Assembly: GCA_001797815.1 (NCBI GenBank)
Contig: MGQK01000039.1
Location: 16,413 to 24,983 of the forward strand
Direction of reading: 5' to 3'
DNA: 8,571 nucleotides
From: Deltaproteobacteria bacterium RBG_13_61_14
Lineage (GTDB): Bacteria; RBG-13-61-14
In this document: one piece after another, positions 2,968 to 8,571 of the stretch
How the letters are laid out: each line of letters begins with the position of its first letter
Numbering within the stretch: the stretch's first letter is position 1
Notes under the pieces: generated by a model
Told to the model about the DNA's origin: nothing
Database searches by the model: none
What the model saw: only the letters and a program-made list of their open reading frames with translations
Position numbers and translations under genes: made by a program

Positions 2968-4221
2968 ATGAAATACCTTGAGAAACTTCTGAATGAATTC
3001 CCCGATACTCCCAGGAACATTATCCTTCATGCTGATATCCTGCGACGGGGCATGAAGCAAAACCCTGATCTTACCGAGGCCGGCGAAACCGCTTGCATCA
3101 CCGGAATCTCAACCAGGCTTCAGAGCCTCATCTCAGACTCCAAGCCGTCTCCCAGTATGTTCCATTTTAAGGCTGATGAGACCTCGGTTGACATCAAGAT
3201 AGATCCAAGAAGCCCCTATGAAATCAGAAAAGACGGGGACGGCCAATATCATCTTTTCTGTGGAGACGAAAAATTTGGAGAGGTGAGATTTACCAAGCGG
3301 CCATCTTATACGGACAAAAAAACTTCGGATGGCGAGTCCTGTGCGGCCCTGCTCATGCAAAGGGGGCCTTTCTGTATCCTGGTCAGCCCGCTGGACTTTT
3401 GTGCCTATTATAGCAAGGGCGAAGCCTGCAAATACTGCGTTTTATCCGCGGCAATGGATATTGGGATTAAGAAGAAGATCTTGCCACCGGTTCCGGATCA
3501 TCGCACCATAGCCGAAGCCGTGGCCATGGCAACCGAGGATATCAATCTCAAAGATTTGAAAATCTGTGGTGGCGCCCTTTATGACACCAAAAAAGAAGCG
3601 CATTACTACAAGAAATGCCTCGAGGCTATCCTCGAGCGTATTGATCCACCCGAAGAGATCACCATCTTCTCCCAGGCTTTTGACGCTGAGGATCAGAAGG
3701 ACTTAAAGGAGTTGGGGGCCACCAACATCCTGTTCAACATGGAGGTCTGGAACGAGCGGCTGTGGCCGGAGCTTTTGCCCGGCAAGGTCAAGGCCATCGG
3801 CCGGGAAGAATGGATCAATCGTCTTATCAAGGCGGTGGAGATCTTCGGCCGGGGTCATGTCGGGAGCGGCTTTGTCGGAGGGTTCGAGTGCGCCCCTCGC
3901 CCTGGCTTTCTTTCCCAGGACGAGGCCTTGAATTCGTACCTTGAGGGATTCGAGTTCCTGATTGAAAGGGGGATTGTCCCCTGGTTCACGGTCTGGACTG
4001 CGTTTTCAGTAGGCGGTTTTCAGGTTGATGATCCACCGCCGACCGAGTTTTACCTTCGCCTTGGCCAGGGACTTCATGAGCTGTTAGAGAAACACGGGGT
4101 TTATCCCGACCTGGGATTTTCCAGAATGGGCGTGAACCCGCCTACTCTCGGGCTCTATTGCTACTACTGCTTCAGCATGACTTTTACCCGCGACTACCCC
4201 CGGCTGATCGGACGAAAATGA
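2968..4221 (+). CDS. Radical SAM protein with CX8CX2C cluster motif
   Basis: This cytoplasmic enzyme has 417 residues. After an N-terminal domain of about 130 residues of unknown role comes a strand (PFCILVSPLDF) and the cysteine cluster C145, C154, C157 (CAYYSKGEACKYC). The spacing is CX8CX2C instead of the usual CX3CX2C; an aromatic residue before the last Cys is normal. The SAM-binding GGA (201-203, KICGGALYD) follows. Later elements fit the partial TIM barrel: EITIFSQAF (230-238), ATNILFNMEVW (251-261) and a GxGxxGGFE loop (VGSGFVGGFE, 298-307). These enzymes bind a 4Fe-4S cluster and cleave S-adenosylmethionine to start radical chemistry; the substrate is unknown. A CYYC pair near the C-terminus (398-401) might ligate metal or form a disulfide. 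No SPASM or B12 domain is visible. It lies between an orphan coding tail and a MITE-like element. Confidence 0.8.
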   Translation: MKYLEKLLNEFPDTPRNIILHADILRRGMKQNPDLTEAGETACITGISTRLQSLISDSKPSPSMFHFKADETSVDIKIDPRSPYEIRKDGDGQYHLFCGDEKFGEVRFTKRPSYTDKKTSDGESCAALLMQRGPFCILVSPLDFCAYYSKGEACKYCVLSAAMDIGIKKKILPPVPDHRTIAEAVAMATEDINLKDLKICGGALYDTKKEAHYYKKCLEAILERIDPPEEITIFSQAFDAEDQKDLKELGATNILFNMEVWNERLWPELLPGKVKAIGREEWINRLIKAVEIFGRGHVGSGFVGGFECAPRPGFLSQDEALNSYLEGFEFLIERGIVPWFTVWTAFSVGGFQVDDPPPTEFYLRLGQGLHELLEKHGVYPDLGFSRMGVNPPTLGLYCYYCFSMTFTRDYPRLIGRK

Positions 4222-4351: not shown

Positions 4352-4981
4352 GTGTATAAGATAGTTTTTTTCGTGCCCGTTCTTGTTCTCCTGGTTTGTT
4401 CGTCCCAACTACTGGCGAGGGCAAGTCCCGAGTTGAATCTGACCCAGGAGGAATGGGCCAGGCTGGAAAAGGGCGAGTTGATCTTGAAGATAGAGGAGTT
4501 TGAAGGCGAAAAGGGCATGAGAGGCGTGCGAACCGTCACTTTTCGAATGGTCAACGCCACGCCGGATGAAGTATGGAAAGTGTTGCATGAGCCGGAAAAG
4601 GATTTCGAATGGGCGCCCAGGATCTCGACCAGCAAGGTCACAAACAAGGAGGGGAATTGCATTGACATCCATTACCTTATGAGCATACCTTTTATCCCCG
4701 TCCAGTTCCACATCCGCCGGGTCTATGAAAAGGATAATTGGCTAATCGAAAGCAGCCTGATAGAAAATGAGGAGAATTCTCTTGAGGCAGTTGAGGGCCA
4801 ATACGCCCTCTATCCTCAGCACGCCGGCAAGAAGACCGTCATTAAATATTCGCTTTACCTTATGCTCAGCAATAGAACCCCGATGATAATCCAGCAATAC
4901 TTCACTAAACGAGGCTGCAAGGAATGGATGGAAAACTTTAAAAAGCGGGTTGAAAGCAAAGGGACTTGGAAGAAAGAATAA
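4352..4981 (+). CDS. Secreted SRPBCC (START/cyclase-like) domain protein
   Basis: This protein has 209 residues. The N-terminus is a Sec signal peptide: a short basic start (MYK), hydrophobic core IVFFVPVLVLLV and a cleavage site after ARA (about residue 24), so the mature protein should be periplasmic. Residues 50-205 fit the helix-grip SRPBCC fold. VTFRMVNATPDEVWKVLHEP (62-81) is the typical first strand plus the 'x-A-x-x-x-V-W-x-x-L' helix. Alternating strands follow (FHIRRVYEKDNWLIESSL, GQYALYPQHAGKKTVIKYSLYL), then a long C-terminal helix (FTKRGCKEWMENFKKRV). The fold encloses a hydrophobic ligand cavity and is used by lipid-transfer proteins and some cyclases. The start is GTG 4352 with GGAG (4341-4344) seven bases before it. 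The MITE-like element separates it from the radical SAM gene, so it may have its own promoter. Confidence 0.75.
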   Translation: MYKIVFFVPVLVLLVCSSQLLARASPELNLTQEEWARLEKGELILKIEEFEGEKGMRGVRTVTFRMVNATPDEVWKVLHEPEKDFEWAPRISTSKVTNKEGNCIDIHYLMSIPFIPVQFHIRRVYEKDNWLIESSLIENEENSLEAVEGQYALYPQHAGKKTVIKYSLYLMLSNRTPMIIQQYFTKRGCKEWMENFKKRVESKGTWKKE

Positions 4982-5087: not shown

Positions 5088-5109
5088 AATTAGTAAGGTG
5101 CCCGCCAAT
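5088..5109 (+). repeat. Degenerate 'aaggtg-cccg' repeat at the right edge of the block
   Basis: ATTAGTAAGGTGCCCG here resembles ATTAATAAGGTGTCCCG at 567-583 in the same orientation, differing by one substitution and one base gap. A looser form, TTAAGGTATCCCGGAATT, lies at 1499-1516. On the minus strand this repeat supplies the last codons and stop (TAA) of the glycosyltransferase. It may mark the right edge of inserted DNA. Its origin is unknown. Confidence 0.45.
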
Positions 5110-6337
5110 CCCGCCTGACCTGAACATAGACCGCCTCGGTCGCGGCCGCGGCCTTGGCCCAGGAAAAATTCTGCTCGGCACGCCGGCGCGCCTGCCCGCC
5201 CAGTTGCCGGCGGAGCGAGGGAGAGGAGAGGAGTCGGCGGATGGCCCGGGCCAGCGCTTCCGGGTCGGCCGGCGGCACCAGCAGAGCCGCCACGCCGTCC
5301 GGTCCGGTCACTTCCGGCAAGGCGCCAGCGCTGGTGGCGACCACGGGCAGGCCGCAGGCCATGGCTTCCAGCGCCGGCAGGCCGAAGCCCTCGAACAGGC
5401 TCGGCACCACCGCGGCCTCGGCCCGGTTATATTCCTGCACCAGTTCCTCGTTGCTGATCCGCTCCCGCCAGCTCACCCGCTCGCCCAAGCCCAGCTTGGC
5501 AATCAGGTCCCGGGCATAGACCCGGCCCGGATACCGCCTTCCGTCCACGATCACCAGATGCACCGCCGCGGCCAGACTCGCCAGCGCCTCCAGGAGGTAG
5601 CGCACGCCCTTTTTCCGGTCCTCGGTCGAGCCGACAAAAATCAAACGGCCCGGCACTTTCTCGATCTCCGGGATCGGTCGGAAAAAAGCGCAGTCCACCC
5701 CGTGGTAGATCCGCTCGGCCCGGCCCGGCCCCAGCCGGTAATGCTCTTCGATCAAGCTCCCGACAAAATCGGATCCGGTAATCACCGCCTGAAGCTTCCG
5801 CGCCACCAGCGCCTGCATCAACGGAGGATAGTAAATGGCGCGGCGGGCTTTGCGGAGCAGGCCTTCCATCTGGCGCAGGTCTTCCTGGCGGTCAATCGCC
5901 AGCGGATGGTGGATGGTCGCCACCACCGGGATCCCGAGGCGCTGGATCAGGAGCAGTCCATAGCCCAGGCTCTGGTTGTCATGCACCACGTCGAATTTTT
6001 CCCGGGCATGGAGCCGGCGGAGCAACCCATAGAGACGGAAGCTCTGAGTCATCATCTCGGGATTGGCGCCGGCGCGGGCCAGGGCATACTCCAGGAGGCT
6101 CAGGGGTTGGATGATGGTCCGGAGCGGGAAATGACGGGCGGGCCGGACGATGAAGTTTTCGTTGGGCAGCAGGTGGGTTGTGGCCCAGGGCATCGGCCCC
6201 GGATAGGGCGGGCCGGAGAAGATGTGGACCTGGTGCCCGCGCTCGGCGAGCGCGCGCGAGAGGTTCTGGAGGTAAACGCCCTGCCCTCCGCAAAAGGGAT
6301 TGCCCCGATAACTGAAGAGAGCAACTTTCAACGGCAC
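5090..6337 (-). CDS. GT4-family glycosyltransferase (GT-B fold)
   Basis: This protein has 415 residues from GTG 6337. GGGAG (6342-6346) precedes GTG by only four bases and TTG 6331 by ten, so TTG (two codons shorter) is also possible. The N-terminal Rossmann domain starts with KVALFSYRGNPFCGGQGVYL and NLSRALAERGHQVHIFSGPP, the standard acceptor half. HDNQSLGYG and VVATIHHPL (120-146) follow. The donor half has RLIFVGSTEDRKKGVRYLLEAL (231-252), then the E-x7-E motif EGFGLPALE (E316, E324) and AGALPEV, which bind nucleotide-sugar phosphate and ribose. The enzyme is a retaining transferase using a nucleotide-sugar donor, probably at the inner membrane. It starts 23 bases after the aminotransferase stop and is in one operon with it. 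The last residues (about DWRAPY) come from sequence resembling a motif of the neighbouring insert, so the native C-terminus may be altered. Confidence 0.9.
   Translation of the reverse strand: MPLKVALFSYRGNPFCGGQGVYLQNLSRALAERGHQVHIFSGPPYPGPMPWATTHLLPNENFIVRPARHFPLRTIIQPLSLLEYALARAGANPEMMTQSFRLYGLLRRLHAREKFDVVHDNQSLGYGLLLIQRLGIPVVATIHHPLAIDRQEDLRQMEGLLRKARRAIYYPPLMQALVARKLQAVITGSDFVGSLIEEHYRLGPGRAERIYHGVDCAFFRPIPEIEKVPGRLIFVGSTEDRKKGVRYLLEALASLAAAVHLVIVDGRRYPGRVYARDLIAKLGLGERVSWRERISNEELVQEYNRAEAAVVPSLFEGFGLPALEAMACGLPVVATSAGALPEVTGPDGVAALLVPPADPEALARAIRRLLSSPSLRRQLGGQARRRAEQNFSWAKAAAATEAVYVQVRRDWRAPY
5112..5163. repeat. Right copy of the 53-bp imperfect direct repeat
   Basis: This is the partner of 397-449, including a 23-bp exact core (5126-5148). 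It is part of the intact glycosyltransferase gene and encodes FSWAKAAAATEAVYVQVRR. The two copies bracket the whole low-GC block. Confidence 0.75.
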
Positions 6338-6360
6338 TCTGCTCCCTTCGCCCGAGAATC

Positions 6361-7482
6361 TCAACTCGAGTGTTGGTAGAATCCAAGGATGGTCGAAGCC
6401 ACCCGGGACACGTCCTCTTCCGAAAGCTCCGGATACACCGGGATGGCCATGGTCTCTCGCGAGGCCCGCTCCGCCTCGGGCAAGGAAAGCCCCTCCGGCA
6501 CCAGCGGCGCGAAACACTCCAGCCGGTGCAGCGGCACCGGGTAATAAACCGCGGCGCCAATGCCCTGCTCCCGGAGATGCGCCAAGAGCTCATCGCGCCG
6601 GGGCACCCGGATCACGTAGTTGTTGTAAACGTGTTCGCACCCCTTGGCCTTCACCGGCGCCCGGACCGGCGAGTCCACGAAGAGGCGGTCATACTGGTCG
6701 GCATGCCGGCGCCGGGCATAGGTCCAACGCTCGAGGTACTTGAGCTTGACCCGCAGCACCGCGGCCTGGAGGGCATCCAGCCGGCTGTTGTAGCCGACCC
6801 GGCGGTGATGGTATTCCCGGCTGGCGCCGTGCACCCGCAGTTCCCGCACCGTCTTGGCCACGTCCTCCCGGTTGGTCAAAACCATGCCGCCATCCCCGAA
6901 CCCGCCCAGGTTCTTGCTCGGATAAAAACTCAAACAACCCGCGTCACCCAAGCTCCCGGCCGCCACGCCCTGGTAGCGCGACCCGATCGCCTGGGCGGTG
7001 TCTTCAATCACCGCCAGGCGGTAGAGGCGGGCGAGCTCCAGGATGGGAGCCAGGTGGGCCGGCTGGCCGAAGAGGTGCACCGGGACGATGGCCCGAGTCC
7101 GCTCGGTGATCCGCTTCTCGATCTGGGCCGGGTCCAGGTTGTAAGTGACCGGATCAATGTCCACGAAGACCGGCCGGGCGCCTAAAAGCGCCGAGGTGCT
7201 GGCGGTGGAGAAGAAGCTGTAGGCCGTGGTGATCACCTCATCGCCCGGCCCGACCCCAAGCGCGCGCAGCGCGAGCAGGAGCGCGTCGGTGCCCGAAGCC
7301 ACGGCGATGGCATAGCGCGCGCCCAGGTAAACGGCCAACTCCAGCTCCAGCGCCTCCACCTCCGGTCCCAGAATGAACTGCTGGCTGTCCAAAACCGCGA
7401 GCACCGCGGGAACGACTTCGTCCCGGATCTCGGCCCACTGGGCCTTCAGGTCGAGCAGCGGAATAGTTTTTCTTGCTTTCAT
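6361..7482 (-). CDS. DegT/DnrJ/EryC1/StrS-family sugar aminotransferase
   Basis: This PLP-dependent enzyme has 373 residues, the usual family length, and is cytoplasmic. It opens with IPLLDLKAQWAEIRDEV. QFILGPEVEALE (35-46) is the family's N-terminal signature, and ASGTDALLLAL (62-72) grips the cofactor phosphate. EDTAQAIGS (160-168) supplies the Asp that pairs with the pyridine nitrogen, and FYPSKNLGGFGDGG (186-199) contains the Schiff-base lysine K190. GYNSRLDALQAA (230-241) and the late VYYPVPLH (312-319) complete the pattern. Such enzymes transfer an amino group, usually from glutamate, to a keto-sugar nucleotide to make aminosugars for O-antigen, capsule or glycoconjugates. The exact sugar cannot be told. 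Its short leader has no strong ribosome binding site (AGGT at 7497-7500 is too far from ATG 7482). It is the first gene of a two-gene minus-strand operon with the glycosyltransferase. Confidence 0.92.
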   Translation of the reverse strand: MKARKTIPLLDLKAQWAEIRDEVVPAVLAVLDSQQFILGPEVEALELELAVYLGARYAIAVASGTDALLLALRALGVGPGDEVITTAYSFFSTASTSALLGARPVFVDIDPVTYNLDPAQIEKRITERTRAIVPVHLFGQPAHLAPILELARLYRLAVIEDTAQAIGSRYQGVAAGSLGDAGCLSFYPSKNLGGFGDGGMVLTNREDVAKTVRELRVHGASREYHHRRVGYNSRLDALQAAVLRVKLKYLERWTYARRRHADQYDRLFVDSPVRAPVKAKGCEHVYNNYVIRVPRRDELLAHLREQGIGAAVYYPVPLHRLECFAPLVPEGLSLPEAERASRETMAIPVYPELSEEDVSRVASTILGFYQHSS

Positions 7483-7591
7483 TGGCGAGACAGTTTACCT
7501 GATGGCAAATGATTAAGCAAGAAAGCCGGGTGATAATCACAAGGGTGATTTCAAATCGAAAAGGGAGGTGCAGGATAAAAACCTATTTGCT
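7483..7591. promoter_or_regulatory. Divergent promoter region with GTGAT palindrome
   Basis: This 109-bp spacer between two divergently read genes is AT-rich within GC-rich DNA, as expected for promoters. It contains a perfect 11-bp palindrome GTGATAATCAC (7530-7540) and a further half-site GTGAT at 7545-7549. The palindrome includes GATAAT (7532-7537), a five-of-six match to a plus-strand -10 box, but I find no good -35 box. A regulator binding here could control both directions; which one is unknown. Confidence 0.4.
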
Positions 7592-8571
7592 ATGATCTAC
7601 CCCATGACCGATTTCGAGACACCTGGGACGGAAACCTCTGCGCCTTTCCCGCAGCCGATGGCACTCTTCCGGGACCGGATGCGCGGCCCGGAGCTGGCCT
7701 CCCTCTACCAGGCGATCTGGCGCCTGGCCTGGCCGGCCTTCCTCGGCCAGGGCATCAGTTCCATGGTCATGTTCCTGGTGCGCATCATCGTCAGCAACCT
7801 CGGCGACAAAGCCTACAACAGCGTCAACATCGGGATGATGGTCTTTTTCGTGGTGATGACCGTGATCGCCGCGGTGGGCGTCGGCACCACCGCCCAGGTG
7901 GCCCTGGCCTGGGGCGCCGGCGACCGCCGCCACGCCGGCCGGGTGCTCCAGCAAAGCCTGCTCTGGGGGTTCCTGCTCACGGTGGTGATCGCGCTGGTGG
8001 GCATGCCCACCTCCAAGTTGCTCTACCACCTCCTGGGCGCGGACCAGGAAACCATCCGCTTCGGGACCACGGTGTTGATCTGGCTCTATGCCGCCACGCC
8101 CCTCCTGGCGCCCGGCTTTTTCCTGGCCGCCGGTCTTCGCGCCGCAGGTGATACCCGGACCCCCATGGTGGCCGGCGTGATCATGGCGGTGGCCGCCTTG
8201 ACCCTTTCCTATGGCCTGATCCTGGGCAAATTCGGATTTCCCGCGCTGGGCACTCTCGGCGCCGCCCTGGCGATTGATTGCTCTTTTTTTGTTTTTACCC
8301 TGATTCTGGGCATGCTCTTCCTCACCAACCGCACTGTCCTCAAGCTGCCGCTCCGCGGCTGGAAGCTGGATACCAAGATCGGCGCGGCCATCTTCAAGAT
8401 CGGGCTGCCCGCGGCCCTGGAATGGATCCTGATCCAGGTGGGTATGTTAGTTTACGTGTTTGTCATCTACAAGTACGGCGATGAACCGGCCGCCGGCTAT
8501 TTCACCGGCGTAGCCATCTTGACTTTTGCCCAGACTCCGGGCCACGGCTTCCAGACCGCGGCGGCAACCCT
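7592..8571 (+). CDS. MATE-family efflux transporter, N-terminal part (3' truncated)
   Basis: The frame is open from ATG 7592 to the window end, giving 326 residues of a family that usually has about 450. A hydrophilic cytoplasmic leader of about 40 residues precedes AIWRLAWPAFLGQGISSMVMFLVRIIVSNLG, the first helices. The MATE signature GLRAAGDTRTPM (181-192) lies after helix 5, with GTLGAALAID following. The second half begins FKIGLPAALEWILIQVG and PGHGFQTAAAT near the cut. MATE proteins are twelve-helix inner-membrane antiporters that export drugs or metabolites using sodium or proton gradients. The start is uncertain: ATG 7592, 7604 and 7658 are all in frame and none has a well-placed ribosome binding site; GGGAGG (7563-7568) is over 20 bases from the first. 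It diverges from the sugar aminotransferase; a link to that operon is possible but unproven. Confidence 0.88.
   Translation, partial: MIYPMTDFETPGTETSAPFPQPMALFRDRMRGPELASLYQAIWRLAWPAFLGQGISSMVMFLVRIIVSNLGDKAYNSVNIGMMVFFVVMTVIAAVGVGTTAQVALAWGAGDRRHAGRVLQQSLLWGFLLTVVIALVGMPTSKLLYHLLGADQETIRFGTTVLIWLYAATPLLAPGFFLAAGLRAAGDTRTPMVAGVIMAVAALTLSYGLILGKFGFPALGTLGAALAIDCSFFVFTLILGMLFLTNRTVLKLPLRGWKLDTKIGAAIFKIGLPAALEWILIQVGMLVYVFVIYKYGDEPAAGYFTGVAILTFAQTPGHGFQTAAAT

Follow-up and report, generated by a model that had tools for sequence, protein, structure and literature searches.

What kind of enzyme is encoded by an open reading frame in which eight residues separate the first two predicted radical SAM cysteines, and what chemistry might it perform? 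We addressed these questions in an 8,571-nucleotide stretch, hereafter the window, of contig MGQK01000039.1 (C39) in the genome of Deltaproteobacteria bacterium RBG_13_61_14 (G000). Translation of the window placed the open reading frame exactly at positions 2968 to 4221 of the plus strand, with an ATG start and a product of 417 amino acids, designated P0001. The protein contains C145-AYYSKGEA-C154-KY-C157 (CX8CX2C; positions 3400 to 3438, +), the predicted ligands of a [4Fe-4S] cluster; G201-G202-A203, a GGE-type SAM-binding motif (3568 to 3576, +); G299-S-G-F-V-G-G-F-E307, a GxIxGxxE-type SAM-binding loop (3862 to 3888, +); and a C-terminal CXXC, C398-Y-Y-C401 (4159 to 4170, +). Hence, the open reading frame and all the motifs listed in a preliminary description of this DNA were indeed present. 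A canonical CX3CX2C motif was absent from the whole 417-amino-acid protein.

To compare P0001 with its relatives, we aligned 40 homologues gathered from unrelated genomes. Only the columns of C145, C154, C157, and G202 were fully invariant, G305 being nearly so. Eight residues separated C145 from C154 in 37 of the 40 sequences, with 9, 10, and 14 residues in the remaining three. Since the cysteines are invariant and the exact spacing is kept in 37/40, CX8CX2C is under constraint and cannot be put down to chance. The proposal that P0001 belongs to the radical SAM enzymes and that its CX8CX2C motif is conserved was thus sustained, all 40 homologues having retained C145.

The NCBIfam model NF045502 ("variant_rSAM") recognized P0001 with 219.8 bits (cut-off, 125) over residues 17 to 375 and matched all 40 homologues, whereas the Pfam radical SAM model PF04055 reached 19.3 bits, below its gathering score of 29.5, so that profile searches supported the assignment through the former model but not through the latter. 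CX8CX2C is a hallmark of this catalogued family; therefore, the wide spacing is not peculiar to P0001. Likewise, the suggestion of a poorly described subfamily was apt with regard to function but not to existence, as the family is already modelled. P0001 scores well above the NF045502 cut-off and shares its three-cysteine spacing with the compared homologues; however, NF045502 is a broad domain model without a function, whereas the P0001 clade has neighbours of its own and a CXXC tail. None of the Pfam and NCBIfam models for SPASM or Twitch C-terminal domains matched P0001, the tail of which holds just the CXXC. A literature search yielded no relevant paper on radical SAM enzymes with a CX8CX2C or CX9CX2C motif and none that assigns the CX8CX2C family a reaction. 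P0001 is truly a radical SAM enzyme, and its variant family is catalogued but functionally uncharacterised.

Within the tree of homologues, P0001 grouped with proteins from loci L020 (70% identity), L028 (50%), and L002 (35%), with support values of 99/97. The protein from L063 (54 to 55% identity), which is truncated by a contig end and was left out of the tree, is closest to these four. The clade is small, patchy, and rare. A scan of genome contigs from 84,980 species with patterns derived from P0001 and L002 returned a single locus, L020. Of three genomes from the phylum to which the window belongs, one has a clade member, as does 1 of 12 genomes of the family to which genome G434 belongs. 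Viral contigs contained no relatives of P0001. Among the matches listed for a plasmid collection, about 370 Klebsiella records carry a distant MSMEG_0568-type relative that is 21% identical to P0001 over half the length. Other neighbourhoods of variant radical SAM genes looked different. At L068:5924-9197 and L069:8382-10172, the gene downstream of more distant members encodes a small protein similar, by eye, to PPOX-type flavoproteins; this other recurring pair may be the sign of a further subfamily. At L023:4216-10207, two tandem members lie beside genes that by eye appear to encode the binding protein, permease, and ATPase of an ABC transporter. In genome G026 (L022:4492-8539), the gene of the 35% relative is convergent to a spermidine-synthase-like gene, and its neighbours appear by eye to encode 2-phosphoglycerate kinase and cyclic 2,3-diphosphoglycerate synthetase.

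We evaluated whether P0001 might act like NitD of the Nit1C cluster, in the nitrogen metabolism of nitriles or cyanide. TIGR04043 (MSMEG_0568/NitD) was the second-best family for P0001, and NitD-like proteins belong to the same NF045502 set, with which P0001 has the CX8CX2C motif, the barrel, and a portion of the N-terminal region in common. However, the score of 62.3 bits is far under the TIGR04043 cut-off of 303.7, the P0001 clade is separate in the tree, and the tail of P0001 carries CYYC in place of the CX2CX2C of NitD-like members. Moreover, no nitrilase, GNAT, or AIR-synthase-like gene was seen in the window or the surrounding 20-kb region. We consequently rejected a NitD/MSMEG_0568 identity on the basis of the score and the lack of nit genes in these regions, and we regard a NitD-like role as highly improbable. 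The consulted passages of Nit1C papers name NitD simply as a radical SAM protein and assign it no reaction (PMC10138600, PMC11049912).

An AlphaFold2 model of P0001, built from the 40-row alignment, had a pLDDT of 89.3 and a pTM of 0.90. The solved structures closest to this model all have the radical SAM barrel, namely, lipoyl synthase (Z score of 17.2) and HydG and HydE (approximately 16), followed by NosL, NifB, PylB, and biotin synthase (approximately 15). From this match to LipA, HydE, and HydG, we infer that C145, C154, and C157 come together in space. A search of the PDB with the P0001 sequence alone gave no meaningful match, and a profile search gave weak matches to BioB, ThiH, HydG, HydE, and PylB. 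The radical SAM barrel (Z scores of 15 to 17) is what P0001 has in common with lipoyl synthase, HydE, HydG, and biotin synthase, from which it differs by an identity of only 11 to 19% and by another N-terminal domain. These four enzymes carry the canonical CX3CX2C motif. The N-terminal alpha+beta domain of P0001 (residues 1 to 130; positions 2968 to 3357, +) is common to the family. Because it lies mostly inside the NF045502 alignment, it is no unassigned add-on, contrary to the preliminary description. Folded alone, it reached a pLDDT of 87.1 and had no Foldseek match in the PDB at an E value of ≤0.001 and no VIA match with a Z score of at least 2, an absence of match that leaves a new fold unproven. 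The family membership and the fold of P0001 are well supported.

The C-terminal CYYC has counterparts in the three nearest full-length relatives (CNYC, CYFC, and CYQC). In the 40-member set, other branches have a CXXC or a CX2CX2C tail, and many members have neither. Conservation of CYYC, which had been expected to back the assignment, was therefore observed as CXXC in the nearest relatives and several branches but was not universal. Another cysteine, C136, is kept throughout the P0001 clade and in several other branches. We considered that C136 might strictly accompany the C-terminal CXXC and act as a third ligand, an idea not upheld across the 40 members. An auxiliary metal or cluster site at CYYC is possible. 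Such a site could serve sulfur insertion or Fe-S cluster remodelling as in lipoyl or biotin synthase, in which case a sacrificial or auxiliary cluster would be bound by CYYC, perhaps together with C136. Consistent with this scenario, lipoyl synthase is the nearest solved fold, one member of the NF045502 set touches the LipS2 model, CXXC recurs in the nearest full-length relatives, and C136 is found in the whole clade. However, CXXC and C136 do not strictly co-occur across the family, and residues 386 to 392, just before CYYC, were modelled with low confidence. In addition, the nearest fold tells little, because Z scores of 15 to 17 are common to many radical SAM enzymes. We thus consider sulfur insertion or cluster remodelling unlikely.

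The 70% relative is encoded by a metagenome-assembled genome (G098). There, the genes on one strand are ordered GntR, radical SAM, metK, MTAP, apt, tal, prs, tkt, and lsrF, with a gap of 80 bp between the GntR and radical SAM genes and then of 91 bp before metK, 83 bp before MTAP, 8 bp before apt, 58 bp before the transaldolase gene, 44 bp before prs, 53 bp before the transketolase gene, and 40 bp before lsrF. Farther along the run (L020:9361-17107 and L031:2703-9752) are mtnA and the genes of a START-like protein and a DMT transporter, likewise on the same strand. Two genes that lack a family come next, before rpiB. All nine enzymes scored above curated cut-offs (MetK, 597 bits; MTAP, 300; Apt, 260; transaldolase, 459; Prs, 464; transketolase, 922; LsrF, 510; MtnA, 409; RpiB, 173). 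The two genes between those for DMT and RpiB (L031:5448-7277 and 7339-9255) encode large proteins that have hydrophobic segments at the N terminus and match no Pfam family; these are possibly envelope proteins of the same system. G098 contains two copies each of metK and mtnA, one of each being within the radical SAM cluster. The compactness of the run and these second copies make it hard to explain as housekeeping. The position of this close relative's gene at the front of genes for making and recycling its cofactor suggests a dedicated pathway with a product that is probably transported.

Gene clusters for a phosphorylase, an isomerase, and an aldolase dispose of 5'-deoxyadenosine, an inhibitor of radical SAM enzymes (PMC6079011, PMC8102628). 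The set that defines this DHAP shunt or 5'-deoxyadenosine salvage (phosphorylase, MtnA-type isomerase, and aldolase) is present in G098 as MTAP, MtnA, and LsrF, encoded on the same strand. The enzyme logic beside the 70% relative is therefore the same as in the 5-deoxyribose salvage clusters of Bacillus thuringiensis (drd) and of E. coli and R. rubrum (mtnP-mtnA-ald2). However, those clusters encode a class II aldolase, whereas LsrF is of the DeoC/LacD family, and the G098 run adds metK, apt, prs, and the radical SAM gene. The presence of LsrF beside MTAP and MtnA suggests that a DeoC/LacD-type aldolase takes part in the disposal of 5'-deoxyadenosine; we found no report in the literature of LsrF acting on 5-deoxyribulose 1-phosphate. 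In the proposed scheme, MTA phosphorylase, MtnA, and the LsrF-type aldolase would convert 5'-deoxyadenosine to adenine, dihydroxyacetone phosphate, and acetaldehyde; Apt would salvage the adenine as AMP, using PRPP from Prs and the pentose-phosphate enzymes; and MetK would restore SAM from the methionine released in the radical SAM reaction. SAM recycling by this run is what the gene content of one genome suggests. The salvage set is absent from the window's own locus. Indeed, the window's genome has one metK and one mtnA gene, each on a different contig from the window (C123 and C36, respectively), so SAM recycling is not packaged with the enzyme there. Near the 50% and 35% relatives, we found neither SAM-recycling genes nor a DMT transporter gene.

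The same phosphorylase and isomerase could alternatively act on their textbook substrates, if SAM were cleaved as in Dph2 to yield a 3-amino-3-carboxypropyl radical and 5'-methylthioadenosine (MTA). MTAP and MtnA take their names from MTA, and Dph1-Dph2 offers a precedent for non-canonical cluster ligands (PMC11048331). Nonetheless, P0001 is predicted to adopt the ordinary radical SAM barrel of LipA, HydE, and BioB with GGE-type and GxIxGxxE-type motifs, and no mtnB, mtnC, mtnD, or mtnE gene for sulfur recovery was among those read in the G098 run. A Dph2-like cleavage thus appears very unlikely to us.

We then compared the window itself with G098. The window opens with the 3' end of a gene for a DMT-superfamily (EamA-like) transporter (positions 1 to 403, +), which begins before the window does and stops 2.6 kb short of the P0001 gene. 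It contains a run of N located on C39 just before window base 1. Its product is 44% identical over 271 amino acids to the DMT transporter of the G098 cluster (E value, 3e-65) and is the only strong homologue of that transporter in the window's genome, the next best being 23% identical (E value, 2e-6). Downstream of P0001, positions 4352 to 4981 (+) encode a START/SRPBCC-like protein with a hydrophobic, signal-like N-terminal segment (PF10604, 22.7 bits, below the cut-off), which is 22% identical to the START-like protein of the G098 cluster (E value, 7e-11). The START link is weak because this family is multi-copy. Linkage of a DMT transporter gene to the radical SAM gene is thus seen in two unrelated genomes, an argument made post hoc from one pair among the compared neighbours. 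When about 20 kb of G000 was compared with 50 kb of G098, the shared pairs were the radical SAM, DMT, and START genes only, plus a weak transketolase-like/transketolase match. Vertical synteny was accordingly rejected as an explanation of the wider gene order, as essentially just these three genes are common to both regions. G434 has a DMT gene of another type, YddG-like, which immediately precedes its radical SAM gene.

Between the DMT and P0001 genes, the window encodes a TetR-family regulator (746 to 1498, +; PF00440, 62 bits), which possibly controls the group, a small protein without a family or profile match (1533 to 2114, +), and a 157-amino-acid putative membrane protein without a significant family (2334 to 2807, +); the latter two are candidate group members at most. 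The gene of the 50% relative is likewise immediately preceded by a TetR gene, with no SAM genes at that locus. Promoter and terminator scans gave no more signals than shuffled sequences did. Positions 5090 to 8569 hold GT4 glycosyltransferase and DegT-type aminotransferase genes on the minus strand and then, by eye, a MATE-type transporter gene, all ordinary and apparently unrelated.

The shared neighbours allow another interpretation, in which the SAM genes of G098 stand there by chance or for general metabolism and P0001 is an orphan tailoring enzyme, with DMT and START proteins as its only partners, that modifies, for example, a lipid or a metabolite resembling one. Lipids are frequent ligands of START domains. 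This interpretation fits the adjacency of SAM genes to the radical SAM gene in one genome only and the fact that DMT and START are the sole partners common to both neighbourhoods, but it accounts poorly for a compact run with second metK and mtnA copies. We consider it rather unlikely, though worth keeping in view.

The best explanation as a whole, which we favor tentatively, is an NF045502-type radical SAM enzyme that uses SAM as a cosubstrate and is associated with recycling and DMT transport. A literature search found no assay of any member of the P0001 clade. By analogy with the fold and motifs, C145, C154, and C157 would hold a [4Fe-4S] cluster that binds SAM and reductively cleaves it to methionine and a 5'-deoxyadenosyl radical, which would in turn take a hydrogen from a small-molecule substrate. 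SAM would then be consumed stoichiometrically in the P0001 clade. The linked DMT transporter probably moves the product or the substrate through the membrane, where the START-like protein may bind it. P0001 is thus most likely a SAM-consuming 5'-deoxyadenosyl-radical enzyme that acts on a small, probably transported molecule and is linked to a DMT transporter. A bolder proposal is that the radical SAM enzyme, its own SAM supply, LsrF-type 5'-deoxyadenosine disposal, purine and PRPP recovery, and the DMT transporter form an undescribed module for a high-flux transported product, which we consider doubtful as formulated.

The CX8CX2C family is widespread and counts NitD-type proteins among its members. 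The G098 cluster offers a concrete handle on the P0001 clade, as it predicts that 5'-deoxyadenosine is the by-product, that SAM is consumed stoichiometrically, and that a small molecule is transported, and it nominates an LsrF-type aldolase for the disposal of 5'-deoxyadenosine.
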